Assembly (NCBI GenBank): GCA_938031175.1
Contig: CALHGZ010000001.1
Coordinates: 1 to 64,000 of the forward strand
Direction of reading: 5' to 3'
Length of the DNA stretch: 64,000 nt
Origin: Candidatus Kapaibacterium sp.
GTDB taxonomy: Bacteria; Bacteroidota; Ignavibacteria; Kapaibacteriales; UBA2268
Position 1 is the first letter of the stretch. The number at the start of each line of letters is the position of its first letter. This document shows positions 9,220-43,373 of this stretch, piece after piece. The notes beneath the pieces were generated by a model. The model searched no databases. It was not told the DNA's origin and was given only the letters and a program-made list of their open reading frames with translations. Position numbers and translations under genes: made by a program.

Positions 9220-9249
9220 TGAACTTTAGATGCAATTCAGTTTAAAATT

Positions 9250-9257
9250 CAAAAATA
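9250..9257 (-). promoter_or_regulatory. TAnnTTTG -7 promoter box (TATTTTTG) for the flippase gene
   Basis: An exact minus-strand match lies 30 bases before the flippase ATG at 9219, predicting a leader of about 25 bases. Confidence 0.4.
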
Positions 9258-9398
9258 TAGTAAACATATTAAATTCATAAAGTATTTTTTGCAGTATGAG
9301 TTTTTAAGTTTTTGATTTTCTAATTCCATTAGAATAAGATGAATTCAGGTAATTATTTATTAGTTAATCTATTTTTCATAATTTAATGATTTTATTAA

Positions 9399-18792: not shown

Positions 18793-19669
18793 ATTTTATA
18801 TATTTTAAACATACATTGATTTCTGAAGTTTTAACAACAATAAAATAAATACCACGAGGATAATGATAAAAATTTAACACAGTTGGATATTGTCCGCTGT
18901 AGTGAAATAAATTTTTACCCTCGATACTGATAATATCTAAATGAAATTGTCTTTGCAAATTGATAATGAGCTTATTGTTAGTCAGAGTCAGAAGTTTGTT
19001 TGTATTATTTTGATCTACAGATATTTCTTTTGTTAATGCTAATCCAACAATAGCGTCTAAGTCAAAACCGCTTACAGTTGGATCATAGTAAGGATGATTT
19101 TTGTTGTTTTTTATAACTTTGGTAATATCTTTAATTTTAATGTATTTGATATATTCAAGTCCGAGCACGTCTAAATCGAAACTATCTCCTCCACTAATAA
19201 GTGGATCAAAAGGATTATTTTTCCCATTTGTTGGGGTTTTGCCAGCACATCCTTCCAAAGTAAAAGTATCGCAAGGGAAGTCAATGAAATTAATCCCATC
19301 AATGCTGACAGAAACTATTGCTGGTTCGGCAAATACTTTCCCATTTGCTGGATTTATAAAAGCATTTTCGAAAACAGTGAAATCCGGTCCAGGGATATTG
19401 TAAAGCCAATAACCGCTAAATCCTACAGCAATTTCACCATCCAATCCAAGCGAACATATTTGCCATGGACTAGCGGATGGGGCATTCTTAGATGCATTTG
19501 TATCGGGTAATCCAAATATATTATTCGGGAAATATGGCTCGTTTTGCCCAAATGATTGACCTTTACCCGGGTTAAAATATAACAATTCGTCGCAACCTTT
19601 CATTGTCCATTGCGGAAATGCCGGGGTAATTATTAGAAGTAAGTTCAATATTAGAATTTTTATTCTCAT
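18785..19669 (-). CDS. Secreted surface protein with T9SS sorting domain, B12-operon member
   Basis: A 294-residue exported protein with signal peptide M-R-I-K-I-L-I-L-N-L-L-L-I-I-T-P-A-F-P. The middle matches the cell-surface family often found beside cobalamin TonB receptors: F-N-P-G-K-G-Q-S-F-G near the start, S-L-G-L-D-G-E-I-A-V-G-F, P-G-P-D-F-T-V-F-E-N-A-F, and A-E-P-A-I-V-S-V-S-I-D-G followed by F-P-C-D-T and G-C-A-G. The last 65 residues are a T9SS type A sorting domain ending Y-P-R-G-I-Y-F-I-V-V-K. Function is not established; position suggests help in surface capture of cobalamin. Its start overlaps the TonB receptor stop by 4 bases, so translation is probably coupled. Confidence 0.75.
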   Translation of the reverse strand: MRIKILILNLLLIITPAFPQWTMKGCDELLYFNPGKGQSFGQNEPYFPNNIFGLPDTNASKNAPSASPWQICSLGLDGEIAVGFSGYWLYNIPGPDFTVFENAFINPANGKVFAEPAIVSVSIDGINFIDFPCDTFTLEGCAGKTPTNGKNNPFDPLISGGDSFDLDVLGLEYIKYIKIKDITKVIKNNKNHPYYDPTVSGFDLDAIVGLALTKEISVDQNNTNKLLTLTNNKLIINLQRQFHLDIISIEGKNLFHYSGQYPTVLNFYHYPRGIYFIVVKTSEINVCLKYIKYD

Positions 19670-21636
19670 AAAACTTCAGCATTGATAGTTAAATTCCAGG
19701 TTCTTCCAGTCATTGGATAATTCTTAATAATTTCATATTGAGTATCGAATAAATTGCAGATTTCGAAACGTGTTTTGAGAATAATCGAATTAAATTTGAA
19801 CTCTTTGAATAAGAATATGTTGCTAATCATATATGATTTTAGCATTGATTCATAGTGATTGTCTGGTAAAGAGAAACGATGACTAACATAAATAGCCCTA
19901 AATCCTGGATTTAAGATGCTATTTCTAAAATAAATATAACCTGATAACAATTCTTTTGGCATATAGCTAATCAATTTACCTTTTGTAGGCGAGTTTGGAG
20001 TTTGGTCTGTAGGATTTTGTAATGTATATGATAAACTGAGGTTAATATATTGAAATAATTGTATTTCATTATTGAATTCGATTCCATAATTTTCAGTATG
20101 TGACAGATTCTTTACCGTCCAACTAATAGGATTTTTGGGAATCGAGACAATCTGATCTTGTAAAGAACTGTAGAAAAATGTGATGTTTGAATTTATTTGT
20201 CTAGTAAATGCATAGTCGAAACTCAAACTGATTGTAGAGGATTTTTCTGATTTTAAATTTTGATTTCCATAATTTAGGTAGTACATTTCATTGAATGAGG
20301 GAATGCGATAATTGACTGAAGTAGCTGTTTTTATTATCAAAGGTAAGTCTGAAAAAATGAATTTTGTACCTATTGATGCAGAATAATGAGGCTTAAATTT
20401 CTTTATGTATTCATTACGAAACGATAAAAAAGTTGAGAATTTACCATTGATTAAATTTAAAAAATCGTAACTTAAATTTACTGCAAATGCTGAGGAATAC
20501 CGGTCAACGAAAGATTCAGCATCTGGTTCAAGCATATCTCCGTTTAGTGTAGCATAGTTAGATTCTAACTGGAAAGATGATTTAAATTGGTGTATGTATG
20601 TTGAATATCTGAGATTGAAATTTAATTCTTTGTTATAATATTTGTTATCTAATCCCAAGGGAGAAATATTAAGTTCCTCAGGATCTGAAAAATGTATATA
20701 ATTGTAATTGGCGTTCATTGCTATAGATATACTTTTAGTGGAGTCAAATTTGTTTTCAGTATTGACAAGTGCCAATATATCAAATTCATCCATTTTTGCA
20801 GTAGTTGATTCAATTTTTCCCTGAACAACAGCGCCTGGTATTCCTTGTTTACTTTTGGACACAAATGTACTAGCATTCATGTACCAATTGCCGATTTTTT
20901 TATTTACTTTTAATGTGCTATAATACTGTTGATAATATCCATTAGTGCGACTTGCATGTAAATTATTTCCGAACTGATTTGTCAGGAATTTATAATTACC
21001 TTTAGAACTGTTCATACCTATTGAAAATGATGTTGGCATTCCAGGCAATTCAGTATTTACTTTAATATGAAATTTATAGTCATCGTAAGAAGCCATAGAT
21101 GAATTTAATATCAATTTGTTTGAAGTCTCAAAAGCTGTATTCAATTGTACAATTCCAGCAGAAGCATTGTTGCCAAAAAAAGCTGAATTACCGCCACGAT
21201 AAACAATTACATTTTCAATCAAAAATTCGGGAATTTTATTCAAATTAAATGTACCACTTTGTGTGTGATTAAGTCTTACTCCATCAAATAGAATGAGTGT
21301 ATTTTGAGAAGTAAAACCACGCAAAGATACAGTTTTAAGTCCACCCATTCCGCCATAGTTCTGTAAATATAGACCCGGTACAAATTGTATTGCTTCGGTT
21401 ACAGTATTAGCAATTTCATTAATTATGCTATTTTTCAAATGAAATTTTGGGAAATAATCTAATTCGGTGTAGAATAATCTCTCAGATTCAATAGTTACTG
21501 GTTGTAATTGATAAATGCTGTCTTGGTTTGAAGCTAAAATATTAAGATTATTTAGCAGGAAAAAGCAGAGAAAGCAGAATATAGACGCATTTAGTGTTTT
21601 ATGAGATTTGTGACTATTATATATTCCTTTTTGCAT
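19666..21636 (-). CDS. TonB-dependent outer-membrane receptor, probably for cobalamin (BtuB-like)
   Basis: A 656-residue outer-membrane receptor. After an unusually long N-terminal signal region (hydrophobic core at about residues 18-33) comes a plug domain: Q-L-Q-P-V-T-I-E-S near 45, V-P-G-L-Y-L-Q-N-Y-G near 85, V-S-L-R-G-F-T-S-Q-N-T-L-I-L-F-D-G-V-R near 103, and G-N-N-A-S-A-G-I-V-Q-L. The rest is a 22-stranded barrel ending in an aromatic-rich strand. This size and plug are those of BtuB-type receptors. The upstream cobalamin riboswitch in the same transcription unit makes B12 or cobinamide the likely ligand. It lies downstream of the T9SS propeller gene, separated by a strong hairpin. Confidence 0.85.
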   Translation of the reverse strand: MQKGIYNSHKSHKTLNASIFCFLCFFLLNNLNILASNQDSIYQLQPVTIESERLFYTELDYFPKFHLKNSIINEIANTVTEAIQFVPGLYLQNYGGMGGLKTVSLRGFTSQNTLILFDGVRLNHTQSGTFNLNKIPEFLIENVIVYRGGNSAFFGNNASAGIVQLNTAFETSNKLILNSSMASYDDYKFHIKVNTELPGMPTSFSIGMNSSKGNYKFLTNQFGNNLHASRTNGYYQQYYSTLKVNKKIGNWYMNASTFVSKSKQGIPGAVVQGKIESTTAKMDEFDILALVNTENKFDSTKSISIAMNANYNYIHFSDPEELNISPLGLDNKYYNKELNFNLRYSTYIHQFKSSFQLESNYATLNGDMLEPDAESFVDRYSSAFAVNLSYDFLNLINGKFSTFLSFRNEYIKKFKPHYSASIGTKFIFSDLPLIIKTATSVNYRIPSFNEMYYLNYGNQNLKSEKSSTISLSFDYAFTRQINSNITFFYSSLQDQIVSIPKNPISWTVKNLSHTENYGIEFNNEIQLFQYINLSLSYTLQNPTDQTPNSPTKGKLISYMPKELLSGYIYFRNSILNPGFRAIYVSHRFSLPDNHYESMLKSYMISNIFLFKEFKFNSIILKTRFEICNLFDTQYEIIKNYPMTGRTWNLTINAEVL

Positions 21637-23197: not shown

Positions 23198-23234
23198 CTC
23201 ATTCATCTGTTGGCGCAGATGTTTTATTAATGAG
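23198..23234 (-). promoter_or_regulatory. Hairpin between cobalamin aptamer and first gene
   Basis: Directly after the aptamer the minus strand forms an inner stem CATCTG/CAGATG with an outer CTCATT/AATGAG pairing. There is no U-run, so it is unlikely to be a terminator. It may be part of the switching region, although the GGAGGT site lies about 70 bases further on. Confidence 0.5.
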
Positions 23235-23235
23235 C

Positions 23236-23404
23236 ATTACAGGCAGGTCTTCTGACTCCGGAGTCAACCTCCCTTGCATCCTTCCCATTTCTTACGAAAA
23301 AGTGGATACCTTTCGGTGTTGCAAGTTCGTCGTCCGTTACAGCGGCGCAACCGTTCCCGATTTTCACGGGATTCCCTATTAAATTGACAAGCAATACCTG
23401 TAAT
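23236..23404 (-). promoter_or_regulatory. Cobalamin (AdoCbl-class) riboswitch
   Basis: Read on the minus strand, the leader shows the conserved cobalamin aptamer elements in order: GGGAATCCCGTGAAAATCGG near the 5' end, then GCGCCGCTGTAACGGA, a central variable arm, GGGAAGG, and the B12 box GGAGTCAGAAGACCTGCC near the 3' end. Closing stem P1 pairs ATTACAGG (23404-23397) with CCTGTAAT (23243-23236). By family knowledge, adenosylcobalamin binding lowers expression of downstream uptake genes. It controls the T9SS propeller, TonB receptor, T9SS surface protein and YncE/BtuG-like lipoprotein. No terminator follows, so control is probably at the level of translation or RNA stability. Confidence 0.93.
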
Positions 23405-23697
23405 CTTTACAAATATAGTTAATTTTTCTAAAATTATATTTGTTTTCTTTAACTATAATTCCGAGTAAAAATCCGACGATAGTGAATTCAAATATGCTTG
23501 TTAAAAACCAGGCCAATGCAAGCATATATGTTATATGCAAATATGAGTATGTTCTAAAACCTGCAGGAAGTCCCCATTTTATGCACTAATTAATCCATAG
23601 TAAATACCATTTTGAATTGATTTTCCCTTTGCGTGCTAAAGAACAAGTAGTTAAAAAAGACGATGGAAAGAATTAATAAAGCTACTTCAGAATTGTA
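23379..23697 (-). pseudogene. Decayed membrane-protein gene (3' part)
   Basis: Minus-strand frames in this gap contain recognisable but broken membrane-protein sequence. One frame gives S-E-V-A-L-L-I-L-S-I-V-F-F-N-Y-L-F-F, the next gives Q-N-G-I-Y-Y-G-L-I-S-A, and after a one-base shift a third continues K-W-G-L-P-A-G-F-R-T-Y-S-Y, then L-A-L-A-W-F-L-T-S-I-F-E-F, then G-F-L-L-G-I-I-V-K-E. The order (Y-G-L, G-L-P-A-G, A-L-A-W-F-L, E-F, G-L-I-V-K-E) recalls a family of small four-helix membrane proteins I have seen in Bacteroidota. At least one frameshift plus in-frame stops indicate decay. The residual 3' end runs into the cobalamin riboswitch, overlapping its promoter and 5' edge. Confidence 0.55.
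23410..23417 (-). promoter_or_regulatory. TAnnTTTG -7 promoter box (TATATTTG) of the B12 operon
   Basis: TATATTTG on the minus strand ends 5 bases before the first paired base of the riboswitch P1 stem, so transcription would start at the aptamer's 5' edge. The exact match at the expected place gives good confidence. Confidence 0.7.
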
Positions 23698-32836: not shown

Positions 32837-33473
32837 GTATATAAAAAGTCTTCTACAATTAAATAATGATGAGTTTATTCAGGAGATTAAATCAATAATA
32901 ATAAAATCTCATTTTGATATTAATGTTCCTAAATGGAAACAAGAGTTATTATTTGACGATCTGGATGATGAGAAGCAAAAATTACTTCAGCAAGCTGTTT
33001 ATGAAGCTTATTCATATATTGAATTGCTTGAAAGTGATATTTTCAGAAAATCTACAGATATTCCAATAAATTTTGATAGGCTTAATGAAGTAGAAATTGA
33101 ATTAATTGAGAAATTTTTCAAGAGTAACAAGATTAATAACTACGCATTTGAAAATTCGGGAGAGAGTTTATCAAAAATTCTTGATTTGGAAAACCATAAA
33201 ATGTTATTTGCACGGGTTTCCGGAAATTCTATGATTGGAGCTAATTTAAATGATAATGATATTATTATTATTGATACTTCATCAAAACCAATCAATGGAG
33301 ATATTGTTTTAATTAATTTAGGAGGGGAATTTATTGTAAAAAGGCTCAAAATAATTAATACAGAAATTTATTTTGTTTCAGAAAATGCTGAAATGCCACC
33401 TTATAAAATTGATTTTGCAGGAGATTTTAGGATTATTGGTGTGGTCAAATATTATATAAAATCAGTCGAATAG
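32823..33473 (+). CDS. S24-family (LexA/CI/UmuD-like) autoprotease domain protein
   Basis: A 216-residue protein from ATG 32823; a TTG one codon earlier is possible. The N-terminal 110 residues are helical with no recognisable HTH. The C-terminal domain is an S24 peptidase: R-V-S-G-N-S-M with catalytic Ser136, N-D-N-D-I-I-I-I-D, then G-D-I-V-L-I-N and F-I-V-K-R-L with catalytic Lys173. In LexA, UmuD and CI, such domains cleave themselves when stimulated by RecA filaments. Here the DNA-binding part is a separate overlapping gene (XRE). Whether a cleavable Ala-Gly or Cys-Gly peptide exists is unclear. It converges on mobA with a 12-base overlap. Confidence 0.85.
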   Translation: MKKDEYIKSLLQLNNDEFIQEIKSIIIKSHFDINVPKWKQELLFDDLDDEKQKLLQQAVYEAYSYIELLESDIFRKSTDIPINFDRLNEVEIELIEKFFKSNKINNYAFENSGESLSKILDLENHKMLFARVSGNSMIGANLNDNDIIIIDTSSKPINGDIVLINLGGEFIVKRLKIINTEIYFVSENAEMPPYKIDFAGDFRIIGVVKYYIKSVE

Positions 33474-34070
33474 ACTTTTTAAATATTGAGCATAATCCTC
33501 TTGGGTATTGATATTCAAAAGAATATTTTTTTTGTATGTATTCATTTTTGAAGCTTCTACAATAAATGGCTTAATTAAATTGATAAAATTATACATACTT
33601 AATGTTCTTTTGTCTGTTTTACTTTTTTCTGAATTTATTATTTGTTCAATTATCGAAACATTTTCATTATGATAGATTGCACATAGCGGTTGTATCCGGT
33701 TATCAACTTTAAGAATAGAATTACGATATTTTAAAGTAATTTCTACAAATTCACGGATGAAATCACTGTTAATATTGGGCAAATCGCAGGAAATGACAAA
33801 GATTTTTTCATTCGATGAATGTAATAAAGCAGAATGGATACCCCCCAGGGGACCATAGGATTTGAAAATATCTTTTACCTGCCTTTGTTTGATGAAATCA
33901 TAATAAATGTTACCGGTAGAAACAAGAATTTCAGAAAAAACGGATTCCAACTGATTAATTAAATATTGAATTAGAGGTATTCCGTCCTTATTGATTAACG
34001 CTTTATTACTTCCAAATCTACTACTTTTGCCACCTGCTAATATAACACCGCTAATGGAATATAAATTCAT
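33462..34070 (-). CDS. mobA: Molybdenum cofactor guanylyltransferase
   Basis: MobA attaches GMP from GTP to molybdopterin, making the guanine-dinucleotide form (bis-MGD) used by DMSO-reductase-family enzymes. The 202 residues carry the family signature I-L-A-G-G-K-S-S-R-F-G-S-N-K-A near residue 10, then G-P-L-G-G-I-H-S-A-L near 74, the metal-binding V-I-S-C-D-L-P-N, Q-P-L-C-A-I-Y near 127, and a C-terminal N-I-N-T-Q-E-D-Y. It is the last gene behind the Moco-like leader and overlaps the NTPase gene by 20 bases. The PsrA-type enzyme 7 kb upstream on the same strand is a natural consumer of its product. Confidence 0.9.
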   Translation of the reverse strand: MNLYSISGVILAGGKSSRFGSNKALINKDGIPLIQYLINQLESVFSEILVSTGNIYYDFIKQRQVKDIFKSYGPLGGIHSALLHSSNEKIFVISCDLPNINSDFIREFVEITLKYRNSILKVDNRIQPLCAIYHNENVSIIEQIINSEKSKTDKRTLSMYNFINLIKPFIVEASKMNTYKKNILLNINTQEDYAQYLKSLFD

Positions 34071-34575
34071 TTATTAAACTTTCTGAGTATTCATCATTAT
34101 CGACATCGAAAATAAATGAATCATTCAAATTATATTTAATGATTATCTCGTTGAGTAAATTTTTGCGTACTACAAGAAATAAAAATTTAATATTAGATGT
34201 AATCAATAAACAAAGACATTTGTGCCATCCGATATTGGATGTTTCAAGAATACCTATTTCATCTAATAAAATAATATCTATTTTTCTTTTAATTGACTCG
34301 AAAATTTCTAATGTTGCAAAGTCGAACGAAGATTTTCTATATCGGAAATCACCACATTGATCTGATGAAAACTCTGGGTCTTTTCTCATTAATTCGAGTT
34401 TTCTTCTATTTTCCAAATTGACTATATCATATCCAATTAACTTGTCATCCCTGTAAACTGGTTCAGATAAAAATCCGCTAAATTTAATATTGTTTTTTCT
34501 AAGGAAATTTGCAACATTAAGTAGACTTTTTGATTTACCTTTTCCTTTAGCACCTGTTATAATAAATACTTTCAT
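34051..34575 (-). CDS. THEP1-like nucleoside-triphosphatase (NTPase_1)
   Basis: A 174-residue P-loop protein: Walker A G-A-K-G-K-G-K-S-K-S at 8-17, G-F-L-S-E-P-V-Y near 34, G-Y-D-I-V-N-L-E near 48, a Walker-B-like I-D-I-I-L-L-D-E-I-G near 99-108, and F-L-F-L-V-V-R-K near 130. The layout matches THEP1-type NTPases, which hydrolyse NTPs slowly and whose physiological role is unclear. It is not an ABC ATPase: no ABC signature is present. Between a TonB receptor and mobA, it might act as a MobB-like helper in cofactor maturation or energise the adjacent transporter; both ideas are inference. Overlaps the TonB gene by 4 bases and mobA by 20. Confidence 0.75.
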   Translation of the reverse strand: MKVFIITGAKGKGKSKSLLNVANFLRKNNIKFSGFLSEPVYRDDKLIGYDIVNLENRRKLELMRKDPEFSSDQCGDFRYRKSSFDFATLEIFESIKRKIDIILLDEIGILETSNIGWHKCLCLLITSNIKFLFLVVRKNLLNEIIIKYNLNDSFIFDVDNDEYSESLINEFIFH

Positions 34576-36533
34576 AATTTAATATCGGATGAAAAAAGGT
34601 TTATTCCGATTATAAACTGTCTTCCTGGTTGCGGGAATCCATATTCAGTTTCGTAATATCTGTCATACAAATTGTTAATCCTTAGAAATAATTCAATTCG
34701 GTTAAATAATTTTTGTGCGACTCTTAAGTTTTGGATAAATTGATCTTGCAAGCGAACCTGTAAACGATTATCCGGATTGGTACCATAAATCAATCCTACA
34801 AAGCTTGTCTCAATGTTCCAGGAAAAGCCAAATTCATAGGCTTGATGTAGAAAAATATTAAAAAGGTGACGTGGCCTATTATCAAGTATTTTTGAATTCG
34901 CATCTGAGCTTGTATTTTCTGAATATAAATAGGTATAATTAATATCAGTTTCAATATCAAATAATCGAGATATAAAGGACAATTCAAATCCTCTGAATTC
35001 AGCTCTACCAATATTTTGAAATTGACGTTTATTATCAGGTAAATTTTGCAAGTAAATCAAATCCTTAATACTATTATTATAGATGGCAAATTTTAAATTT
35101 CCATTGTTAAATAAATTAATGCCGGTGCCAATTTCCAAATTAATTGAATTTTCAGGTTTTAATAGAGGATTGGCAAGGTTTGTACCTATTAATTCAGAGT
35201 AGAATTCTTTTAATGTTGGAAAACGATTTTTGAGAGTAAGATGTGTATATAGATATATTTCATTTGTGATTTGATAGTTTGCTCCAATGAGTGGGTTAAT
35301 TGAATTTGATGGATTCCTTAATTCCCCGGCATTGGCATAAATTGGTTGTAGAATATCGTAACTAATGCCAGCAACCAGTGAGAGTGATTTAATTAGTTCC
35401 AGATCCTGTTCAACTCCGAAAGATAATGTACGTGCTTCAAAATTTTTGAATGGTTGATTGGAATTCCCTTGCTCATTGTGTGTGTCGTGTCTTAAATTAA
35501 TTGATAATTTAGTTTTTCCATTAAGGGTACCATCTTTTGTTAAAAGTAATAAAGCTCCGTAAGAGAAATCATCATAAGTAGAGGTAAAGGCATACCGTTC
35601 TTTCTGACTATTAAAATTTGCATCGTCATAGGAATTCAAAACGTTATAATAGGTGTCATAGTAAGCTATAAATTTCATATTAAATAAATTTGAATTTGTA
35701 TATTCACTGTTAAGGCTGAAAGTGTTTTTTTTCCATTCTGTAAATTTCCAGTAGCGTGGTCTATTTGTATAGATATTAAGTGGTAAATCTTTGGGGTTAT
35801 TATTGTGGGTAAATAGAAGCGAAAAAGTTAGATTGTTTATCGGATAAATTGTAGTTTTTAAGGAGAGTGCTTGCCTATGATAGGAACTATTATCACGTAT
35901 TCCACCATTTTCATTTTTTTGCTCAGTAAAATTTTTAGGTAGTGAATATCCATCAGAACTTTCGCTAAGCATAGAAATTAGCCAACTAATAAATTTAAAT
36001 TTACCATTGTGTGTCAGTGAAAAAGCCTTGGCTTCACCATAATGTACGGAAGCTTTGAAATCAAGGATATCTTCAAAAACATTATTTGTTATTACATTAA
36101 TAGTGCCGCCCATTGAATTTGCACCATATACAACTGATGGCATACTTTTTGTTATGTTTATTTTTGATAAATTATTTGTGGTAATACCACTATAATCTAG
36201 CGAACCATCGTAAGGTGAAGAAATAGGTACTCCATCGTAAAACAATAATGTCTGACGCTGTTCAAATCCCCTGACATTAATTACAGCTTCGTTTCGTGTG
36301 TTCCGTGAGATATAAATACCAGATAAGAATTTCAAAGCGTTTTCTAATGATAGAGCATCAAGTTGATTAAGTTTTTTTTGTTCGATATCAATTATATTCG
36401 AAATCTTGCTTATTTTCTCATTTGTTCCTGTTACTATTAGTTCTCCTAAATAATAATGTTTTAAACTGTCATTACTTCTTGCTTGTAACAAAGATAGACA
36501 AGAGAGGATTAGTAAAAAATGGATTGTTTTCAT
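34572..36533 (-). CDS. TonB-dependent outer-membrane receptor in the Moco-type operon
   Basis: A 653-residue outer-membrane receptor with signal peptide M-K-T-I-H-F-L-L-I-L-S-C-L-S-L-L-Q-A. The plug shows Y-L-G-E-L-I-V-T-G near residue 28, I-N-V-R-G-F-E-Q-R-Q-T-L-L-F-Y-D-G-V-P near 84, and Y-G-A-N-S-M-G-G-T-I-N-V near 138; the rest is a beta-barrel ending P-G-R-Q-F-I-I-G-I-N-L-F. The size is that of siderophore/cobalamin-type receptors. The ligand is unknown. Placement with MobA, two ECF-like membrane proteins and a Moco-like RNA suggests a molybdenum or tungsten complex or a cofactor precursor. Its start codon shares the base at 36533 with the upstream gene's end. Confidence 0.85.
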   Translation of the reverse strand: MKTIHFLLILSCLSLLQARSNDSLKHYYLGELIVTGTNEKISKISNIIDIEQKKLNQLDALSLENALKFLSGIYISRNTRNEAVINVRGFEQRQTLLFYDGVPISSPYDGSLDYSGITTNNLSKINITKSMPSVVYGANSMGGTINVITNNVFEDILDFKASVHYGEAKAFSLTHNGKFKFISWLISMLSESSDGYSLPKNFTEQKNENGGIRDNSSYHRQALSLKTTIYPINNLTFSLLFTHNNNPKDLPLNIYTNRPRYWKFTEWKKNTFSLNSEYTNSNLFNMKFIAYYDTYYNVLNSYDDANFNSQKERYAFTSTYDDFSYGALLLLTKDGTLNGKTKLSINLRHDTHNEQGNSNQPFKNFEARTLSFGVEQDLELIKSLSLVAGISYDILQPIYANAGELRNPSNSINPLIGANYQITNEIYLYTHLTLKNRFPTLKEFYSELIGTNLANPLLKPENSINLEIGTGINLFNNGNLKFAIYNNSIKDLIYLQNLPDNKRQFQNIGRAEFRGFELSFISRLFDIETDINYTYLYSENTSSDANSKILDNRPRHLFNIFLHQAYEFGFSWNIETSFVGLIYGTNPDNRLQVRLQDQFIQNLRVAQKLFNRIELFLRINNLYDRYYETEYGFPQPGRQFIIGINLFSSDIKL

Positions 36534-37105
36534 TATTCCTCCGAAGAAATATATTTATGGTTATTAAATTTTTTCATTGAATTATGTATAAAATTTGCAA
36601 GAACTTCTGAAAAAAAATGTATTGGGTGCAGTAGAGCATACTTTATAGTAATTTTTTTATTATTCATAATTGAATTTTGTAAAGAATCAATTGCGCTAGG
36701 CATAAGTTCATTGCTAATTCTGTACACTTCATCGAATGATCTGACACCCATTTTTTGCCAAAATTTGTTAATATTAAAATTTTTTGAAAGTACAATAAAG
36801 AGATTGAATGAAATGAGTATCAGTGTAGCTCGTACAATAATTTTTGTAGCTTGAATTAATGAGCTACTTGAATAATTAATTAATAGTAAAGTTGAATCCT
36901 TTTGGCTTGTTAAAAGTGGATAAAAAATCAAGCTGATCAAAATAATTATAAGGAAAAATTTGTTAAAAATTTTTTTCAATAAATAGGGATATGCCAAAGA
37001 AATTGTTATTATTGAAATAGTGCAAACGATACTGGAGTATTCCAGGGGTAAAAATGCAGAAATCAGAAAGATTAGCGGTAATATTTTTATAATTGTTTTA
37101 TTCAT
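36533..37105 (-). CDS. EcfT/CbiQ-like membrane protein (atypical)
   Basis: A 190-residue protein with four or five hydrophobic segments in the first 115 residues, then an amphipathic C-terminal part (W-Q-K-M-G-V-R-S-F-D-E-V-Y-R-I-S-N-E-L-M-P). The arrangement resembles the transmembrane T component of ECF vitamin/metal transporters, where helices after the membrane region couple to ATPases through A-R-G motifs. I see no A-R-G motif and no ATPase gene nearby, so the assignment is tentative. It overlaps the preceding S-like gene by 8 bases, so coupling to it is strong. Confidence 0.5.
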   Translation of the reverse strand: MNKTIIKILPLIFLISAFLPLEYSSIVCTISIITISLAYPYLLKKIFNKFFLIIILISLIFYPLLTSQKDSTLLLINYSSSSLIQATKIIVRATLILISFNLFIVLSKNFNINKFWQKMGVRSFDEVYRISNELMPSAIDSLQNSIMNNKKITIKYALLHPIHFFSEVLANFIHNSMKKFNNHKYISSEE

Positions 37106-37703
37106 TCTTACTCATAAATTCTAATTTAGCAAAGGTTTTTTGAAAAATTCTGTCAGCTAAAAAGCCGGCAAATATTCCAGCGATTAGATAAAGAATGATA
37201 AGAAATGATAAGAAGTAATAAATATTAGCAATATTAATTCCTAAAATTCCAGATAATTCCTGAGCAATGAAATTGTAAACAGAGATGATGTCTATACCGA
37301 AAATGAAAATCTGTGCAATTAAGCCATGTGCTAAAGTATAGAGCATAATACTAATTCCTGCGATTATAGATGAAAATAGATTTGTTTTCATTAAAATAAA
37401 AATGAATTCAGCTATAATAGCTTCCATAAGGATAGCTATTATGGGAGTGATGACAAATCCACCAGCAGATAATGCTTTTAAAGATGAGGTAACAATTGCC
37501 ATAAGTAGTAAAGCACCACGCTTACGAATAAATTTATTAGCGATATTTAAAATTATGGCAGCAAAGAATGTTAAAAGCGTACCGCGAAATGGAATTTTTA
37601 ATAGGTGTAGATAGTTCCCAATTAAAATTTCAACAGCAGCCCAGATAGCTGAAAATATGGCTATCAAAACAAGTTCTTCCTTATTTAATTTTAAATTTTT
37701 CAT
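37098..37703 (-). CDS. ECF-type S component-like membrane protein
   Basis: A 201-residue, six-segment membrane protein resembling substrate-binding S components of ECF transporters: a charged N-terminus K-L-N-K-E-E-L-V-L-I-A-I-F-S-A-I-W-A-A-V-E, then I-P-F-R-G-T-L-L-T-F-F near residue 37, a central S-S-L-K-A-L-S-A-G-G-F-V-I-T-P-I near 73, and an A-G-I-F-A-G-F-L-A-D-R-I near the C-terminus. The substrate cannot be read. It is the first gene after the Moco-like leader, and the terminator T-run of that leader touches its ATG, so its expression depends directly on the switch. Confidence 0.65.
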   Translation of the reverse strand: MKNLKLNKEELVLIAIFSAIWAAVEILIGNYLHLLKIPFRGTLLTFFAAIILNIANKFIRKRGALLLMAIVTSSLKALSAGGFVITPIIAILMEAIIAEFIFILMKTNLFSSIIAGISIMLYTLAHGLIAQIFIFGIDIISVYNFIAQELSGILGINIANIYYFLSFLIILYLIAGIFAGFLADRIFQKTFAKLEFMSKNE

Positions 37704-37705
37704 AT

Positions 37706-37736
37706 AAAAAAAGCCTCATGGAAAGTGAGGCTTTAA
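37706..37736 (-). terminator. Rho-independent terminator (riboswitch expression platform)
   Basis: On the minus strand AAAGCCTCA and TGAGGCTTT form a perfect 9-bp stem followed by TTTTTTTA, 22 bases after the structured leader and ending 2 bases before the ATG at 37703. It would stop transcription before the S-component gene unless the leader prevents it, so it looks like an attenuator. Confidence 0.85.
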
Positions 37737-37758
37737 TAAATTGTTTATAATATTTAAA

Positions 37759-37868
37759 CACTCCTTTCCAATTGCGTTCACGACGCAGGGAGGCGTAAAA
37801 GTTTCCTTTTGCACCCTATCGGCTTGAAATCATAGCTTTATAAGCCTTAGATTTTCAAGCTCGGAGTT
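37759..37868 (-). promoter_or_regulatory. Structured leader resembling the Moco/Tuco riboswitch
   Basis: About 110 bases on the minus strand fold into a closed multi-stem RNA. P1 pairs ACTCC (37867-37863) with GGAGT (37764-37760). P2 (37860-37822) is GCTTGAAA..TTTCAAGC and contains CTAAG..TATG, very close to the 11-nt GAAA-tetraloop receptor. A separate stem AAAAG-GAAA-CTTTT (37810-37797) presents a GNRA tetraloop. Then GCCTCCC, a TGCGT/ACGCA hairpin (37787-37773) and GGAAAGGAG follow. The order CTCCGAGC...GCCTCCC...GAAAGGAG and the tetraloop/receptor pair match my recollection of the Moco family, and downstream mobA fits. The class is inferred and needs a covariance-model search. Confidence 0.65.
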
Positions 37869-37888: not shown

Positions 37889-38524
37889 TTAGCAACCTTC
37901 TCTTTTTGGTTTACCTTTTTTCTCACCACTCGATGGAGGTGGTTGAACTTTGGGTAAATTTGTTTTCGGTAATTCCCGAGAAACAGCAATTTCTGAGGTT
38001 GCACCAACTAATGGGGTACCCCCAAAATGTTTACTTATTTCAATAAGTTTTTCTTGATTTTTTGAATCTGATATAATTGGGAAAATAATACTTTTTTTCC
38101 AATTATCTATGCCTCCTTTGAGCATTAAGATGTTTTTGTATCCTAAGGTTTTTAAAAGTAACCAACTTTGAGCGGTCTTCAGTTCGTCATCTGAATAAAT
38201 CAAAATTTTTTCATTTCTTAATAATTCAGAAGTTTTGATTTTGGTCAAAGGTATGTTTTCAGCGCCAGTTATAAAATAATCCTCGTATTGCTTTTCATCA
38301 CGAACATCAATTAGTCTAAAATCAACTTTGCCTTGAATGAGCCATTCGGCTAGTTGTATAGGTGCTATTATGTTATTTGAATCAATAATGTTAAGCGCCA
38401 GTTCATCGACATTGATGATTGCTTTGTTACTTTCATAAGGAGTATTGAAGAATATTGCAAAAAACCCTGATATAAGAGCAATAATTGCCAATTTATTATT
38501 TGTGGATAGATTAATTTTTTTCAT
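37889..38524 (-). CDS. Membrane-anchored rhodanese-like protein, catalytic Cys replaced, with C-terminal Cys
   Basis: A 211-residue protein with one N-terminal membrane anchor (about residues 11-27), so the domain is probably periplasmic. Residues 55-145 are a rhodanese fold: R-L-I-D-V-R-D-E-K-Q-Y near 70 and the late L-G-Y-K-N-I-L-M-L-K-G-G-I-D-N-W. In active sulfurtransferases the loop after I-L-I-Y begins with Cys; here it is Ser111 (Y-S-D-D-E-L). The only Cys in the protein is the last residue, C211, after a flexible Pro/Lys/Gly tail (G-K-P-K-R-E-G-C). It overlaps the YeeE-like gene by 14 bases and is the last gene before the Moco-like leader. A sulfur-carrier or structural role is possible but unproven. 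Confidence 0.85.
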   Translation of the reverse strand: MKKINLSTNNKLAIIALISGFFAIFFNTPYESNKAIINVDELALNIIDSNNIIAPIQLAEWLIQGKVDFRLIDVRDEKQYEDYFITGAENIPLTKIKTSELLRNEKILIYSDDELKTAQSWLLLKTLGYKNILMLKGGIDNWKKSIIFPIISDSKNQEKLIEISKHFGGTPLVGATSEIAVSRELPKTNLPKVQPPPSSGEKKGKPKREGC

Positions 38525-39131
38525 CTTTCACCTCAACATTTTTTGATGCTAAACGCTTTTCAACCCATTCTGCGGCTATAAACCCACCTAAAGCCATAAG
38601 TACAACAAAAAATATAACAATTCCATATGGTATATGCAAAACATCGGACAGATTGAGTTTACCCATTGCGGTTGAATAGTAAAAAGGTTCAATTGCAGAA
38701 AATATTAAGCTAAGTCCAAAGGTACCTGCAATTACTCCAAGTAAAAAGAAAATTGCATCCAATTTTCCTGTGCTTGCAGCAACGAGCGAAGTACCGGGAC
38801 AATATCCGCCAATAATAAATCCGAATCCAAGAATTAATCCACCAACTATTTGGGGCACTAAAAATGTATCATTGCGATAAATGAGATTATAATCTAAAAA
38901 TCCGATGAGTGATAAATAATAAACACCGATCATAGCAGTGACAATTGCTGTGAACATAACTTTAAAAACTGCCATATCTGTAAAATAAAATTGTGAAGTC
39001 AATTTTTTTGCACTACCAAAACCGGCACGTTCGAGGAAAAAACCGAACCCAATCCCGATAATAAATGCAATAATGAAGCTAAATTCTTCGCTGAATAAAT
39101 CAAATTTATAAAATGGTGCCATCATCTCCAT
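38511..39131 (-). CDS. YeeE/YedE-family membrane protein (C-terminal-half type)
   Basis: A 206-residue membrane protein with five or six hydrophobic segments. The family signature G-F-I-I-G-G-Y-C-P-G-T-S-L-V-A near residue 105 contains the conserved Cys of YeeE/YedE (TsuA-type) thiosulfate/sulfur transporters. A G-F-F-L-E-R-A-G-F-G-S-A near residue 28 is also typical. Full-length YeeE proteins have about 350 residues with two such cysteine loops; this gene and its upstream neighbour each carry one, so they probably act as a heterodimer. The substrate is likely thiosulfate or another reduced-sulfur species, from family and context. Overlaps the upstream gene by 10 bases. Confidence 0.85.
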   Translation of the reverse strand: MEMMAPFYKFDLFSEEFSFIIAFIIGIGFGFFLERAGFGSAKKLTSQFYFTDMAVFKVMFTAIVTAMIGVYYLSLIGFLDYNLIYRNDTFLVPQIVGGLILGFGFIIGGYCPGTSLVAASTGKLDAIFFLLGVIAGTFGLSLIFSAIEPFYYSTAMGKLNLSDVLHIPYGIVIFFVVLMALGGFIAAEWVEKRLASKNVEVKDEKN

Positions 39132-39667
39132 TGCCTCCTTAAAAAATAAGCTAACATATAAGCACCAGCAAAAACAGAAAGCATAAAAGCCCAGGAGCCG
39201 AAATTAAGTAGAGCACCACCACTAAGTGCTTGCCCACTAGTACAACCCCTTGCTAATTTAGCGCCAATACCCATGAGCGAACCACCTAAAAATGCGAATA
39301 ACAATCGCTTTTTATCAGTAAAGTTAGGTCCGCGTTCTATGCTATATTTCACTCTACCAGCTAAAATACCTGAGATAAATCCTCCGAAAAGCACACCCAA
39401 TACCTCAAACACAAGCCAATCTTTTAAGGGATTTGTATTATCCTCTAGATATGATTTGTAAAAAGCATTGTTATGAGCAAATTCAGTATCAATTGAGTTT
39501 ACGATTGCTGCTAAAGTTGAAGAAAAAGCACCTGAAGCTCCAAGACCGCGTCCCATAATAATGAAAGTCAAAAGGAGAACCAACCCAAGTCCTATTCCTG
39601 CAAGATATGGATTAGAGTATGGTTTTGGTGGTGAATAAAATCGTTCATTTTTTTGATTTGATTCCAT
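39122..39667 (-). CDS. YeeE/YedE-family membrane protein (N-terminal-half type)
   Basis: A 181-residue membrane protein with four or five hydrophobic segments and the family loop L-A-R-G-C-T-S-G-Q-A-L-S-G-G near residue 139, containing one conserved Cys. Together with the following overlapping gene it makes up a two-chain version of the YeeE/YedE transporter. The N-terminal G-L-V-L-L-L-T-F-I-I-M-G-R-G-L-G-A-S-G-A segment is also characteristic. It follows the NrfD-like membrane subunit by 12 bases in the reductase operon, which points to supply or removal of sulfur compounds for that enzyme. Confidence 0.85.
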   Translation of the reverse strand: MESNQKNERFYSPPKPYSNPYLAGIGLGLVLLLTFIIMGRGLGASGAFSSTLAAIVNSIDTEFAHNNAFYKSYLEDNTNPLKDWLVFEVLGVLFGGFISGILAGRVKYSIERGPNFTDKKRLLFAFLGGSLMGIGAKLARGCTSGQALSGGALLNFGSWAFMLSVFAGAYMLAYFLRRQWR

Positions 39668-39679
39668 TTTAAGCCTCGC

Positions 39680-40636
39680 TTATTTTATTATATCATAAAT
39701 AGCTGTATTCCATTGTGAGTTCTGTCCCATTGAGACAATAATGAATCTGAGTATTAGACCTCCTGTAATTACTAGAATTGGGGCAACAGGCGTATGGCGA
39801 ATTTTAAGATTGACTGCAAGCAATTGAATAAAAAGGGGAATAACTATACCTATAAATACAACAAAAATCCAAAATGTAGCAGTATATTCTCCACCTAAAA
39901 TTAGGTTAACAGCCTGGATGTGAACCTTTGAAGAGGTTAAAAATCCAATGAGAATGAGACAAATTATAATTAATTCAGCCACTAAAAATCCATTATCAGC
40001 TTTAGCAAGCATTCTTCTTTCTTCTGCATCTCGGCCAACTAGATGGACGAAAGCAGCTGCTGTTGAAAGTCCAGATACTAAAAATAAAATCCAAAGCATA
40101 GAGTTGTTCCAAGCTGGTCTTGCAACAAATGAACTTAGTAAAATGCCGGTATAAGTACCAAGTAATCCGCCAACAATCATAGATGCCGAACCGATAATTT
40201 TTATTAAAAATGGTCTTTTATTAAGTTTTTCTGAAAAATTTGTCAATAATTTTAATTTTCCTTTAATTTCATCGGGTATTCTGATTAATGCATTAGCGAT
40301 CAAGATTGGATATACGAGAAATAATATCCAAGCACCCCATGACATAGGAGACCACCACTGGAATGTAACATACATTCGCCAGAAATGTTCCTTATAGCTC
40401 AAATCAAGGAATAAAGCCAACATACCAATTGATAATAAAAAGATAGCAACAATAGGTACAAGAAAACAAGAGCATTTTGTGTTTTTGGTTCTGCCGGTTA
40501 ATATGAAGTAACCGGATATCATCATCATTCCAGCGACAAATCCACCAAGAAATAGATATACAGCAATTTCCCAACCCCAAATATGAATCGCAGGGTCAAT
40601 CAAAGGGTTATTTCTTGTTATGACTAATTCATGCAT
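39680..40636 (-). CDS. NrfD/PsrC-type membrane subunit of a molybdoenzyme
   Basis: A 318-residue membrane protein with eight or nine hydrophobic segments. The start I-H-I-W-G-W-E-I-A-V-Y-L-F-L-G-G-F-V-A-G is the NrfD family signature, and T-F-Q-W-W-S-P-M-S-W-G-A-W near residue 90 is also conserved. NrfD/PsrC subunits bind menaquinol and exchange electrons with an iron-sulfur subunit without haem. Here it would link the quinone pool to the FeS protein encoded just upstream, as in polysulfide reductase. It lies 10 bases after the ferredoxin gene and 12 bases before the YeeE-like pair. Confidence 0.9.
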   Translation of the reverse strand: MHELVITRNNPLIDPAIHIWGWEIAVYLFLGGFVAGMMMISGYFILTGRTKNTKCSCFLVPIVAIFLLSIGMLALFLDLSYKEHFWRMYVTFQWWSPMSWGAWILFLVYPILIANALIRIPDEIKGKLKLLTNFSEKLNKRPFLIKIIGSASMIVGGLLGTYTGILLSSFVARPAWNNSMLWILFLVSGLSTAAAFVHLVGRDAEERRMLAKADNGFLVAELIIICLILIGFLTSSKVHIQAVNLILGGEYTATFWIFVVFIGIVIPLFIQLLAVNLKIRHTPVAPILVITGGLILRFIIVSMGQNSQWNTAIYDIIK

Positions 40637-40646
40637 CGCATCACCT

Positions 40647-41186
40647 TTAAATTAGATAATAGACATTTGGTTCAGTTCCTGCTTCAGGAATTAGTGTATG
40701 ATATTTTCTGGCTTTTAGAAGTTGAGCAACATCACTCATTGGGTCATCCAAATCACCAAAATACATACAATGAGTGGGGCAAACTTCTACACAAGCAGGT
40801 TTACCGCCATGTTTGACTCTGTGTTCGCAAAATGTACATTTTGAAGCATAACCAACTGGATGAATAAAACGAGCATTGTAAGGACAGGCTGCTATACAAG
40901 CTTTGCATCCACTGCATTTGTTTTGATCAACAAGAACGATTCCACCTAAACTCGAAATGTAACTAGCACCACAGGGGCAGCAATAAACACAGGGAGGATT
41001 ATCACAATGATTGCAACGCTCGCTTCTGTTTTCCTGATGTAAATTAGGAAATTTACCTATTGTTTCGTAAGCAAGCCAGTCCCTATTGAAACCTTCTGGT
41101 ACGTCGTTTTCAGTTTTGCAAGCTACAACGCAATCCATACAACCGACACATTTTTTTGTATCAATAACCATAGCAAAGCGAGCCAT
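40647..41186 (-). CDS. Four-cluster ferredoxin subunit (PsrB/PhsB-like)
   Basis: A 179-residue electron-transfer subunit with four [4Fe-4S] cysteine sets of the DmsB/PsrB/PhsB type: C-V-G-C-M-D-C-V-V-A-C at 14-24, C-N-H-C-D-N-P-P-C-V-Y-C-C-P near 59-72, C-S-G-C-K-A-C-I-A-A-C-P near 90-101, and C-T-F-C-E-H with C-V-E-V-C-P-T-H-C near 118-140. There is no signal peptide, as usual for a partner that is co-exported with the Tat-bearing catalytic subunit. It would carry electrons from the NrfD subunit to the molybdopterin subunit. Adjacent to psrA-like gene with no gap. Confidence 0.92.
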   Translation of the reverse strand: MARFAMVIDTKKCVGCMDCVVACKTENDVPEGFNRDWLAYETIGKFPNLHQENRSERCNHCDNPPCVYCCPCGASYISSLGGIVLVDQNKCSGCKACIAACPYNARFIHPVGYASKCTFCEHRVKHGGKPACVEVCPTHCMYFGDLDDPMSDVAQLLKARKYHTLIPEAGTEPNVYYLI

Positions 41187-43373
41187 TTAATCCTCCATAA
41201 GAATAGTAACAAAATTGACATTCATACCAGTTCCGCCCATAATCGGGTCAATTTTATATTTTGTAATAAGTTCGGCATCACTTGCACCTCTCATATATGC
41301 TCCGCTCAGAGCTTTAGATCGATGTCCAAAACCATGAACCATATATACACAATCACCGCGAATTTTTTGAGTTGCTTTGACTTTCACCTTGTTGCTAATA
41401 ATTCCATCTTGATTTTTTAATCTGATGTAATCGCCGGATTTTATCCCAATTCGATTTGCAATATCTGAGTTTATCCAAACTTCATTTTCATTCATCATGT
41501 CCCTTAAAATTCTATTAGTCTGAGTTTGACTGAAGGTATGAACAGGTGCTCTTCCAAATAGCAAGCGAAAATATCCCGGAGGTGGATCATCAGGTGGAAT
41601 ATAGCGTGGAATAGGGTCAAAGCCATATTCAGCAAGCTGATTTGAATAAAATTCAACTTTTCCGCTTGGTGTGAAAAATTCCTGCTTTACACCTTCATTA
41701 TCGTAGATAGGCTGTTTTTCTCCGAAGATAATTCCTTTTGATTTAAATTCATCATAAGAATATCCGGCAGATTCAATTCTATATTTTAGGTATTCTTCAA
41801 TATCAGTCCAAGGGAAATATTCGTTTAAATTTAGTTTTTCAGCTAATTTTTTGGCAATCCACCAGCCGGGTTTTTGTTCATTGGGTGGATTTACAACTGG
41901 TTGCCTAATGAGAGCAAAGGGTAGATAGAAAGAATTTACACTTATATCGTCAAATCTTTCTAAATAGACAGCTTCTGGAAGTACAACATCAGCCCATGAA
42001 GTAATTTCGGATGGGATAACATCAATTGCTACAAGTAAATCCAATTTATTAATTGCCTCAATCGTTTCCAGCTGATTTGGCATTGATTCAATTAAATTTG
42101 TACCATATACGAACCATCCTTTTATTGGGTATGGCTTTTCGGTAAGTGTTGCTTCACGGATACCGTTAGTTAAACCTTCTTCACTTATAAATGGATACTT
42201 ATTATCTGGATTGTCTGCTTTTTCTCTTTGTGATTCAGGGTAAGGTGGATATGGGTATTTAGGAATCTTCATTTCAGCAGGTTTAAAGAAACCACCTTTT
42301 CTATTCCAATTACCAAGTAAGGCATTTACAAGAGCAATTGCTCTACTTCTTTGAGTGTCGTTACCATACCAATTTACATGCCTTCCCGGATGAACAAGTG
42401 ATGCAGGTTTATGAAGTGCGAGTTCCCTAGCTGTGTTACGAATTTGTTCAGGTGTAATTCCAGTTTGTATATACGCCCATTCTGGAGTATAAGCAGAAAT
42501 TTCATTTTTAAATGATTCAAAGCCCCAGCCATATTTATCAACAAAATCTCTATCATAAAGATTTTCGGTGACAAGGACATTCATCCAGCTTAATAATAGA
42601 GCCAGATCGGTACCAGGTTTAATAGGTAGATAGTATTTTGCCTTGCCAGCGGCTATTGAAAATCTTGGGTCAACGACAATTATACTCGCTCCGTTTTCAA
42701 TTGCTTTTGCAAAATCCTGAACCTGAGTATTATGCATATTTTCTCCCAAGTGACTGCCAATTAAAGCAAGGCATTTTGTATTACGGATGTCAGTACGTTC
42801 GGGTGAACCGATATAATCGCCAAAAGTTAATTCAAATCCTATTTCGCGTGGACCACGGCATTGTGCAAATGATGGGGCAACTATATTGATTACTCCAAAT
42901 GCTCTCAAGGTGTGTTTCAGGAAGTTTCCACCAATGCCATGATTGAAAAGAGCGATTGATTCGGGTCCGTAAGTTTCTTTTATTTTTAGCATTTTATCTG
43001 CTATATAATTCAAAGCTTCATCCCATGTAGCTACAACCCATTTTTCGTCGCCTCTGTTGCCTTTGCGGATAAGTGGAGCTTTCAAACGATCTGGGTCATA
43101 GTGCATGCCAACACCACCAGAGCCTCTCGGGCAAAGTCTTCCATTACTCAAAGGGTCAAGTGGATTACCTTCAATCTTCCATAGTTTACCATCTCTGACG
43201 TAAGCAATTGCTCCACATTTCCAGAAGCAGATATTGCAATATGTCGGCACTTTTCTGATACCTAGTTCATCTGTGTCATTGCTTTTTATGTTGCTTATTA
43301 GATTTTGTGAAAGTGCAGCGCCTGCAAAAGTTGCTGAACTAATTTCGAGAAATTTTCTTCTTGTCAGTTTCAT
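41187..43373 (-). CDS. Molybdopterin-containing oxidoreductase, PsrA/PhsA (polysulfide/thiosulfate reductase) type
   Basis: A 728-residue periplasmic catalytic subunit of the DMSO reductase superfamily. The twin-arginine signal T-R-R-K-F-L-E at residues 4-10 is followed by a hydrophobic stretch. The [4Fe-4S] ligands are C46, C49, C53 and C81 (C-N-I-C-F-W-K-C and L-C-P-R-G). A Cys at 170 (F-A-Q-C-R-G) sits where the Mo ligand is expected. The C-terminal dinucleotide-binding domain includes G-R-A-P-V-H-T-F-S-Q-T and V-Y-M-V-H-G-F-G-H. It needs bis-MGD, made by MobA encoded downstream, and TatC encoded at 26 kb. Polysulfide, thiosulfate or tetrathionate could be the substrate; the nearby YeeE and rhodanese genes favour a sulfur compound. 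Overlaps the MerR gene by 4 bases. Confidence 0.9.
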   Translation of the reverse strand: MKLTRRKFLEISSATFAGAALSQNLISNIKSNDTDELGIRKVPTYCNICFWKCGAIAYVRDGKLWKIEGNPLDPLSNGRLCPRGSGGVGMHYDPDRLKAPLIRKGNRGDEKWVVATWDEALNYIADKMLKIKETYGPESIALFNHGIGGNFLKHTLRAFGVINIVAPSFAQCRGPREIGFELTFGDYIGSPERTDIRNTKCLALIGSHLGENMHNTQVQDFAKAIENGASIIVVDPRFSIAAGKAKYYLPIKPGTDLALLLSWMNVLVTENLYDRDFVDKYGWGFESFKNEISAYTPEWAYIQTGITPEQIRNTARELALHKPASLVHPGRHVNWYGNDTQRSRAIALVNALLGNWNRKGGFFKPAEMKIPKYPYPPYPESQREKADNPDNKYPFISEEGLTNGIREATLTEKPYPIKGWFVYGTNLIESMPNQLETIEAINKLDLLVAIDVIPSEITSWADVVLPEAVYLERFDDISVNSFYLPFALIRQPVVNPPNEQKPGWWIAKKLAEKLNLNEYFPWTDIEEYLKYRIESAGYSYDEFKSKGIIFGEKQPIYDNEGVKQEFFTPSGKVEFYSNQLAEYGFDPIPRYIPPDDPPPGYFRLLFGRAPVHTFSQTQTNRILRDMMNENEVWINSDIANRIGIKSGDYIRLKNQDGIISNKVKVKATQKIRGDCVYMVHGFGHRSKALSGAYMRGASDAELITKYKIDPIMGGTGMNVNFVTILMED

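Follow-up and report, generated by a model that had tools for sequence, protein, structure and literature searches.

A riboswitch of the Moco/Tuco family precedes a probable cofactor-salvage operon in Kapabacteria and Ignavibacteria

An operon in a Candidatus Kapaibacterium genome, preceded by a riboswitch of the Moco/Tuco family, probably encodes a salvage system that takes up the molybdenum (or tungsten) cofactor, as Moco or as molybdopterin. Eight of nine tested carriers of the corresponding gene cassette encode enzymes that need the cofactor and lack genes for its synthesis. Because these organisms seem unable to convert molybdate to cofactor, uptake of Moco (or molybdopterin) is the best reading. 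In the proposed mechanism, Moco, or perhaps molybdopterin without its metal, would cross the outer membrane through a TonB-dependent receptor, and a pair of S and T proteins would move it across the inner membrane. A THEP1-type NTPase would be the partner of the S-T pair, perhaps as its energy source, and MobA would add GMP to give the bis-MGD form used by PsrA and similar enzymes. When plentiful, the cofactor would bind the leader, so that P1 and then the terminator form and the operon is off. Within this scheme we infer what is transported and in which direction, the part of the NTPase as energy source, and the form of the ligand (Moco or Tuco). The original prediction came with the remark that its author knew of no described system joining these parts; we likewise found none, and the literature searched here yielded no bacterial uptake system for molybdenum cofactor. 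The window, which is the whole 64,000-nucleotide stretch analysed, includes the following features.

33462..34070, minus strand: MobA, putative molybdenum cofactor guanylyltransferase (PF12804, 2e-28)
34051..34575, minus strand: THEP1-family NTPase, NTPase_1 (PF03266, 66.4 bits against a cut-off of 23.9)
34572..36533, minus strand: outer-membrane receptor of the TonB-dependent kind, with BtuB as its best profile match (Pfam Plug, 1.7e-17)
36533..37105, minus strand: EcfT/CbiQ-like T component, by predicted fold only
37098..37703, minus strand: ECF S component, a substrate-binding membrane protein (PF09605 and predicted fold)
37703..37734, minus strand: intrinsic terminator, AAAGCCTCA-CTTTCCA-TGAGGCTTT followed by a T-run that reaches the start codon of the S component
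37719..37770, minus strand: predicted antiterminator, from folding the transcript only as far as the terminator loop
37744..37878, minus strand: Moco/Tuco-family riboswitch aptamer (RF01055) without a P3 stem (cmscan, full length)
37889..41186, minus strand: psrB, psrC (NrfD), two YeeE/YedE-like halves and rhodanese, the remainder of the neighboring sulfur-reductase operon (Pfam)
41187..43373, minus strand: PsrA/PhsA-type molybdoenzyme, a likely client (PF00384, 158.7 bits)

The leader was originally proposed to be a Moco-type riboswitch on the strength of a GNRA tetraloop stem and a CTAAG..TATG motif, and the suggested search with RF01055 bears this out. The match scores 76.2 bits against a gathering threshold of 36, spans model positions 1-135 (E 1.2e-16 for the whole window) and contains both the GGAAAC stem, which is of the GNRA type, and the CTAAG..TATG elements; the 2.69-Mb genome has no other RF01055 match. 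Other RNA classes were rejected, as every other Rfam match falls far below its own cut-off; the outcome named beforehand as contrary to the assignment, a clear match to another riboswitch class, did not occur. Covariation in homologous leaders, also proposed as a check, is present: changes on both sides keep the pairing in 13 of 25 consensus pairs among 11 operon leaders, in an alignment whose P2 region is poorly aligned. The P3 stem is absent from the window leader and from all 11 aligned operon leaders. Aptamers that lack P3 have been tied to the use of tungsten cofactor (Regulski et al. 2008, PMC2408646). By this 2008 rule, which is applied here to sequence, the window aptamer is of the Tuco type, and its ligand may therefore be Tuco, Moco or both. 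The predicted riboswitch family thus stands, revised to the P3-lacking, Tuco-type form. The genes that PMC2408646 gives as targets of Moco RNAs are those for cofactor synthesis, molybdate transport and molybdoenzymes; the word "TonB" does not occur in its text.

The terminator comprises a 9-bp stem (37734-37710) whose T-run passes into the ATATG of the first gene, in line with the original observation of a T-run that ends at the next ATG. In the predicted antiterminator, the 3' strand of aptamer stem P1 (37770-37756) pairs with the 5' arm and loop of the terminator (37733-37719), which excludes P1. Of 11 loci scanned strictly, 10 have a terminator downstream of the aptamer, and inspection by eye shows a CCTTTTCC/GGAAAGG pair ahead of a T-run in the remaining one, G412. 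In all ten folded leaders the 5' arm and loop of the terminator base-pair with the aptamer on its 3' side, at the P1 strand or just after it, and the fold of one leader (G246) retains part of P1. Ligand-induced terminators, which act as off switches, have this layout. The models thus favor the off-switch logic first proposed, with a response to ligand that we infer.

The five reading frames overlap their neighbors by 1-20 nucleotides, consistent with the initial description of five overlapping or nearly overlapping genes ending in mobA. Family and fold searches also agree with the protein identities given there, namely, an ECF-like pair, a TonB receptor, a THEP1-like NTPase and MobA. The S component matches the Pfam family Trep_Strep (PF09605) with 32.8 bits against a cut-off of 28.7. 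Its AlphaFold model (pLDDT 89) has as its best PDB matches the ECF S components 5edl and RibU, and the fold search gives a TM score of 0.61, a probability of 1.0 and an E value of 0.012 for 5edl. The T protein, which has no match in a Pfam search, appears to be EcfT/CbiQ-like by predicted fold only: when its model (pLDDT 75) is compared with PDB folds, the top 11 matches are all EcfT/CbiQ proteins (E 0.06-6.8). Searches of PDB sequences with the S and T profiles returned nothing useful. For the receptor, the plug domain is recognised in the window protein and the TonB barrel domain in its ortholog from G007 (2.2e-24). A profile search places BtuB first (7e-35), the PQQ receptor YncD/PqqU at 5e-22 to 7e-22, and heme receptors lower. 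The NTPase has 1ye8 and 2i3b as PDB relatives. The last gene encodes a MobA-like NTP transferase domain (100 bits in Pfam against a cut-off of 27), has MobA proteins as its closest solved relatives, and scores 122.9 with the NCBIfam MobA equivalog, whose cut-off is 164. Among the reading frames of the loci read, which are the extent of this search, none was recognised as an ABC ATPase gene.

A psrABC-type sulfur-reductase operon that includes a molybdopterin enzyme (41187..43373) is encoded upstream of the cassette, in the same orientation. Its product matches NCBIfam PhsA at 2.6e-154, a score under the equivalog cut-off of that model, and is a likely client of the cassette. Besides this PsrA, the genome encodes another PsrA-like enzyme, 954 amino acids long. 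The remaining molybdopterin-fold matches are weak, and their size fits homologs of respiratory complexes.

Profile searches of 395 genomes of the phylum and a pattern scan of a genome collection of 84,980 species revealed the riboswitch and S-T-receptor cassette in 11 further Kapabacteria/Ignavibacteria genomes besides that of the window. The S, T and receptor genes occur in this order at 11 loci (window, G007, G412, G246, G158, G087, G254, G182, G378, L065 and L069), and a twelfth (L070) is broken off within S by the contig end. Most named carriers belong to Ignavibacteria, Melioribacteraceae and Kapabacteria. RF01055 is found upstream at all 12 loci, including L065, where the match lies just under the cut-off of 36 (34.2 bits, E 1.6e-6), and most loci adjoin molybdoenzyme genes of the nap or psr type. 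The NTPase gene stands behind the receptor gene at six loci (window, G007, G412, G246, G254 and G182), and MobA is in the operon at two (window and G007). It had been noted that general occurrence of the ECF/TonB pair apart from mobA or molybdoenzyme genes would speak against the prediction; instead, the riboswitch is present at every locus and all nine tested carriers encode molybdopterin-dinucleotide oxidoreductases.

This distribution bears on whether the cassette might transport another cofactor, such as heme, a corrinoid or a vitamin, with the Moco riboswitch serving to coordinate it with respiration. BtuB is indeed the closest match of the receptor, heme receptors rank lower among its matches, and the S fold resembles vitamin-type S components. 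However, the invariable Moco-family riboswitch, the usual proximity of nap- or psr-type genes, the presence of MobA in two of the operons, and the fact that the loci track a lack of Moco synthesis make this explanation very improbable.

A second S-component paralog, with no T gene, occurs within a cluster of Rieske/cytochrome-like genes near nap-type genes in several carriers (L053 5534-6145, L054 9852-10436, L057 2888-3469, L059 8582-9274, L061 7762-8352, L063 4633-5208 and L065 70-588). Conserved residues of the cassette S protein are E25, H33, R40, H126 and Q131; the paralog retains E25 and H126, but not H33.

The lack of synthesis genes is the main argument for salvage. MoaA, MoaC and MoeA were not found in the window genome, whose sole PF00994 protein is CinA. 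Among the nine tested carriers, MoaC is absent from eight, MoaA from eight and MoeA from six, and MobA is found in all. When the carriers were searched with a concatenated MoaA-MoeA-MOSC-MobA query, six gave MobA only, two (G087 and G378) gave MoeA beside MobA, and one (G182) gave all. Strong MoaA and MoeA matches in producers indicate that this search works. PF00994 was discarded as a marker of MoeA or MogA, as its extra match is CinA-sized and, in the window genome, is CinA by Pfam. No MogA/MoaB-type PF00994 protein is present in the six carriers without MoeA, each of which has one match of CinA size (two sequences were inspected).

The absence of MoaC is associated with the cassette. Among 187 genomes of the phylum with a Molydop_binding match, MoaC is lacking in 8 of 9 carriers versus 13 of 178 non-carriers (Fisher p = 5e-8), and within the class in 8 of 9 versus 8 of 35 (p = 5e-4); neither value is corrected for kinship, and both overstate independence because the carriers are related. 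Among the 40 closest genomes, those with a strong PF00384 match (E < 1e-20) also have MoaC and MoeA, with two exceptions, the window genome (G000) and G007; these same two genomes are the cassette carriers of the set. Contrasts are apparent even within genera: the operon and molybdoenzymes occur together in G007 and G412 and are both missing from their congeners G392 and G017, and G087 combines the operon with a lack of MoaC, whereas in its congener G097 MoaC is present and the operon absent. The genomes are mostly metagenome-assembled, so that gene absences depend on estimates of completeness. Incompleteness was nonetheless rejected as the cause of the missing genes and is unlikely, since the eight absences occur at 97-99% completeness and one genome (G158) is a single contig at 99%.

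MoaE (PF02391) was set aside as a marker of the pathway. It is found in 0 of 14 genomes of the window's class, including the producers G004, G005, G006, G009, G014 and G182, and is hence uninformative. A MOSC-domain gene lies within the moaA/moaC/moeA/mobA cluster of the MoaE-less producers. The absence of MoaE even where moaA, moaC and moeA are present indicates that the pathway of this lineage is unusual, so a route that escapes recognition is possible, and molybdopterin synthase may be unusual in the class.

The original prediction had the operon importing a metal chelate or a pterin precursor. The first of these, import of a molybdenum or tungsten chelate (metallophore) or of molybdate, with a cofactor riboswitch gating metal uptake as for modABC, would suit TonB receptors and ECF systems, for which metals and their complexes are common cargo. 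Molybdate transporter genes are among those known to have Moco RNAs ahead of them (PMC2408646), and G182 has the operon and the synthesis genes together. In most carriers, however, the missing MoaA and MoaC, and usually MoeA, would block the way from metal to cofactor and leave molybdate unusable, so metal-chelate import is unlikely there and in the window genome. Moco-making relatives, moreover, place MOT1- or ChrA-type transporters behind the switch, and not the cassette. Metal import was therefore rejected as the main reading and is improbable overall. In relatives without the operon, the same riboswitch fronts moaA/moaC/moeA/mobA-type loci. In producers, half-size ChrA homologs or a MOT1-type molybdate transporter are found behind it, next to moaA (L012 2243-2770, L018 8384-8905, L019 8392-8910 and L014 3278-4468), and the ChrA homologs may carry molybdate or tungstate.

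The substrate now favored is the cofactor itself or molybdopterin. Perhaps an intermediate (cPMP or metal-free molybdopterin) is imported and the metal is inserted in the cell, an explanation that overlaps the molybdopterin option of the salvage reading. Two carriers (G087 and G378) are consistent with this, as they keep MoeA next to MobA without MoaA and MoaC. Nonetheless, six carriers have neither MoeA nor a MogA/MoaB-type PF00994 protein, and cPMP would also need MPT synthase, although the failure to find MoaE says little here. Import of an intermediate is thus rather unlikely. Under the preferred salvage reading, the absence of MoeA from six carriers tends to favor a metal-loaded substrate over free molybdopterin, whereas the MoeA of G087 and G378 and the moaA, moaC and moeA of G182 suggest either that the substrate could be metal-free molybdopterin or that prototrophs may be served as well. 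Free Moco is unstable outside proteins, which counts against salvage.

Related proteins occur beyond the carriers. Of 13 non-carriers with enzymes but no MoaC, eight carry another, related S-like protein. Two-domain relatives of about 320-370 residues consist of S and then a T-like part, and their genes are often flanked by a CMD-family gene on the upstream side and an NTPase_1 gene on the downstream side. Three-domain fusions have the order S-T-NTPase (L030 and L031) or NTPase-S-T (L034, L036, L044, L047 and L049). In profile comparisons with the operon T protein, the T part of the three-domain fusions gives a probability of 91 (E 1e-6), and that of the two-domain proteins a weak 39. Fused genes are found near psr-type genes or a cluster-ending rhodanese (L039, L088, L093, L096, L098 and L099), xanthine-dehydrogenase-type genes (L090 and L091), or nar genes and mobA (L064). 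No Moco riboswitch scores above the cut-off near fused S-T genes in 20 loci, so the link of the fusions to Moco rests on neighbors and distribution. Fused S-T proteins are also present in genomes that have MoaC and in others that lack any Molydop_binding match, which, like the missing riboswitch, makes it less certain what they transport.

As judged from their sequences, these natural fusions tie the NTPase to the S-T unit. Together with the lack of an ABC ATPase in the operons, this suggests that the NTPase may be the energising part. It is possible, and is proposed tentatively, that the cassette represents a type of Moco importer in which an ECF-like S-T unit is powered by a THEP1-family NTPase instead of ABC ATPases, with its parts encoded separately here and joined into one protein elsewhere in the phylum.

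A carboxymuconolactone-decarboxylase-family (CMD) protein of about 105 amino acids recurs with riboswitch leaders, moeA-mobA, mobA and fused S-T genes. It is found at the G007 leader in L011 (about 9200-9600), after the riboswitch in L012, at L080 4619-4939 (Pfam CMD), L081 7740-8057 and L082 6698-7012, and in L035, L040, L041, L043, L046 and L048.

If the salvage reading is true, Moco would be a shared nutrient in microbial communities, and nitrate and sulfur respiration in these bacteria would rely on neighbors. Predictions from genomes that require moaA, moaC and moeA for molybdoenzyme activity would fail here, and the S-T-NTPase fusions would give ECF-like transporters a new energising partner.

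The leader shares with other Moco/Tuco riboswitches (RF01055) the conserved core, a full-length covariance-model match, covariation and the anatomy of transcription termination, but it lacks P3 and stands before a putative uptake cassette, in genomes that lack Moco synthesis. The inner-membrane proteins have the S- and T-component folds of ECF transporters, whereas the loci read gave no recognisable ABC ATPase gene and NTPase_1 is present in six loci or fused in relatives. The NTPase scores over the family cut-off for THEP1/NTPCR NTPases (PF03266), with 1ye8 and 2i3b as PDB relatives, and differs in being linked to membrane transport modules, to the point of fusion in relatives.

In B12 uptake of the BtuB type, a cobalamin riboswitch represses the TonB-dependent import of a metal cofactor, and BtuM, a membrane protein of the S-component kind, takes up B12. 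The cassette would share riboswitch-repressed TonB import of a metal cofactor and an S-type component with these systems; it differs in its riboswitch and S family, and in having MobA rather than corrinoid genes. The window itself has a cobalamin riboswitch (23225-23416, minus strand, 99.4 bits) upstream of genes for a secretion-sorting-domain protein, a TonB plug receptor (19666-21636) and two further proteins that match nothing in Pfam; these genes probably take up B12 by the same logic. PqqU/YncD is a TonB-dependent receptor with which, according to PMC12124388, bacteria that use but do not make PQQ import it. It thus resembles the cassette in the import of a redox cofactor by non-producers, and in the profile similarity of the receptors (7e-22), but BtuB matches the window receptor better, and the inner-membrane route and the regulation differ. 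By analogy, the logic of salvage proposed here would be one already known for B12 and, at the receptor step, for PQQ (PMC12124388).
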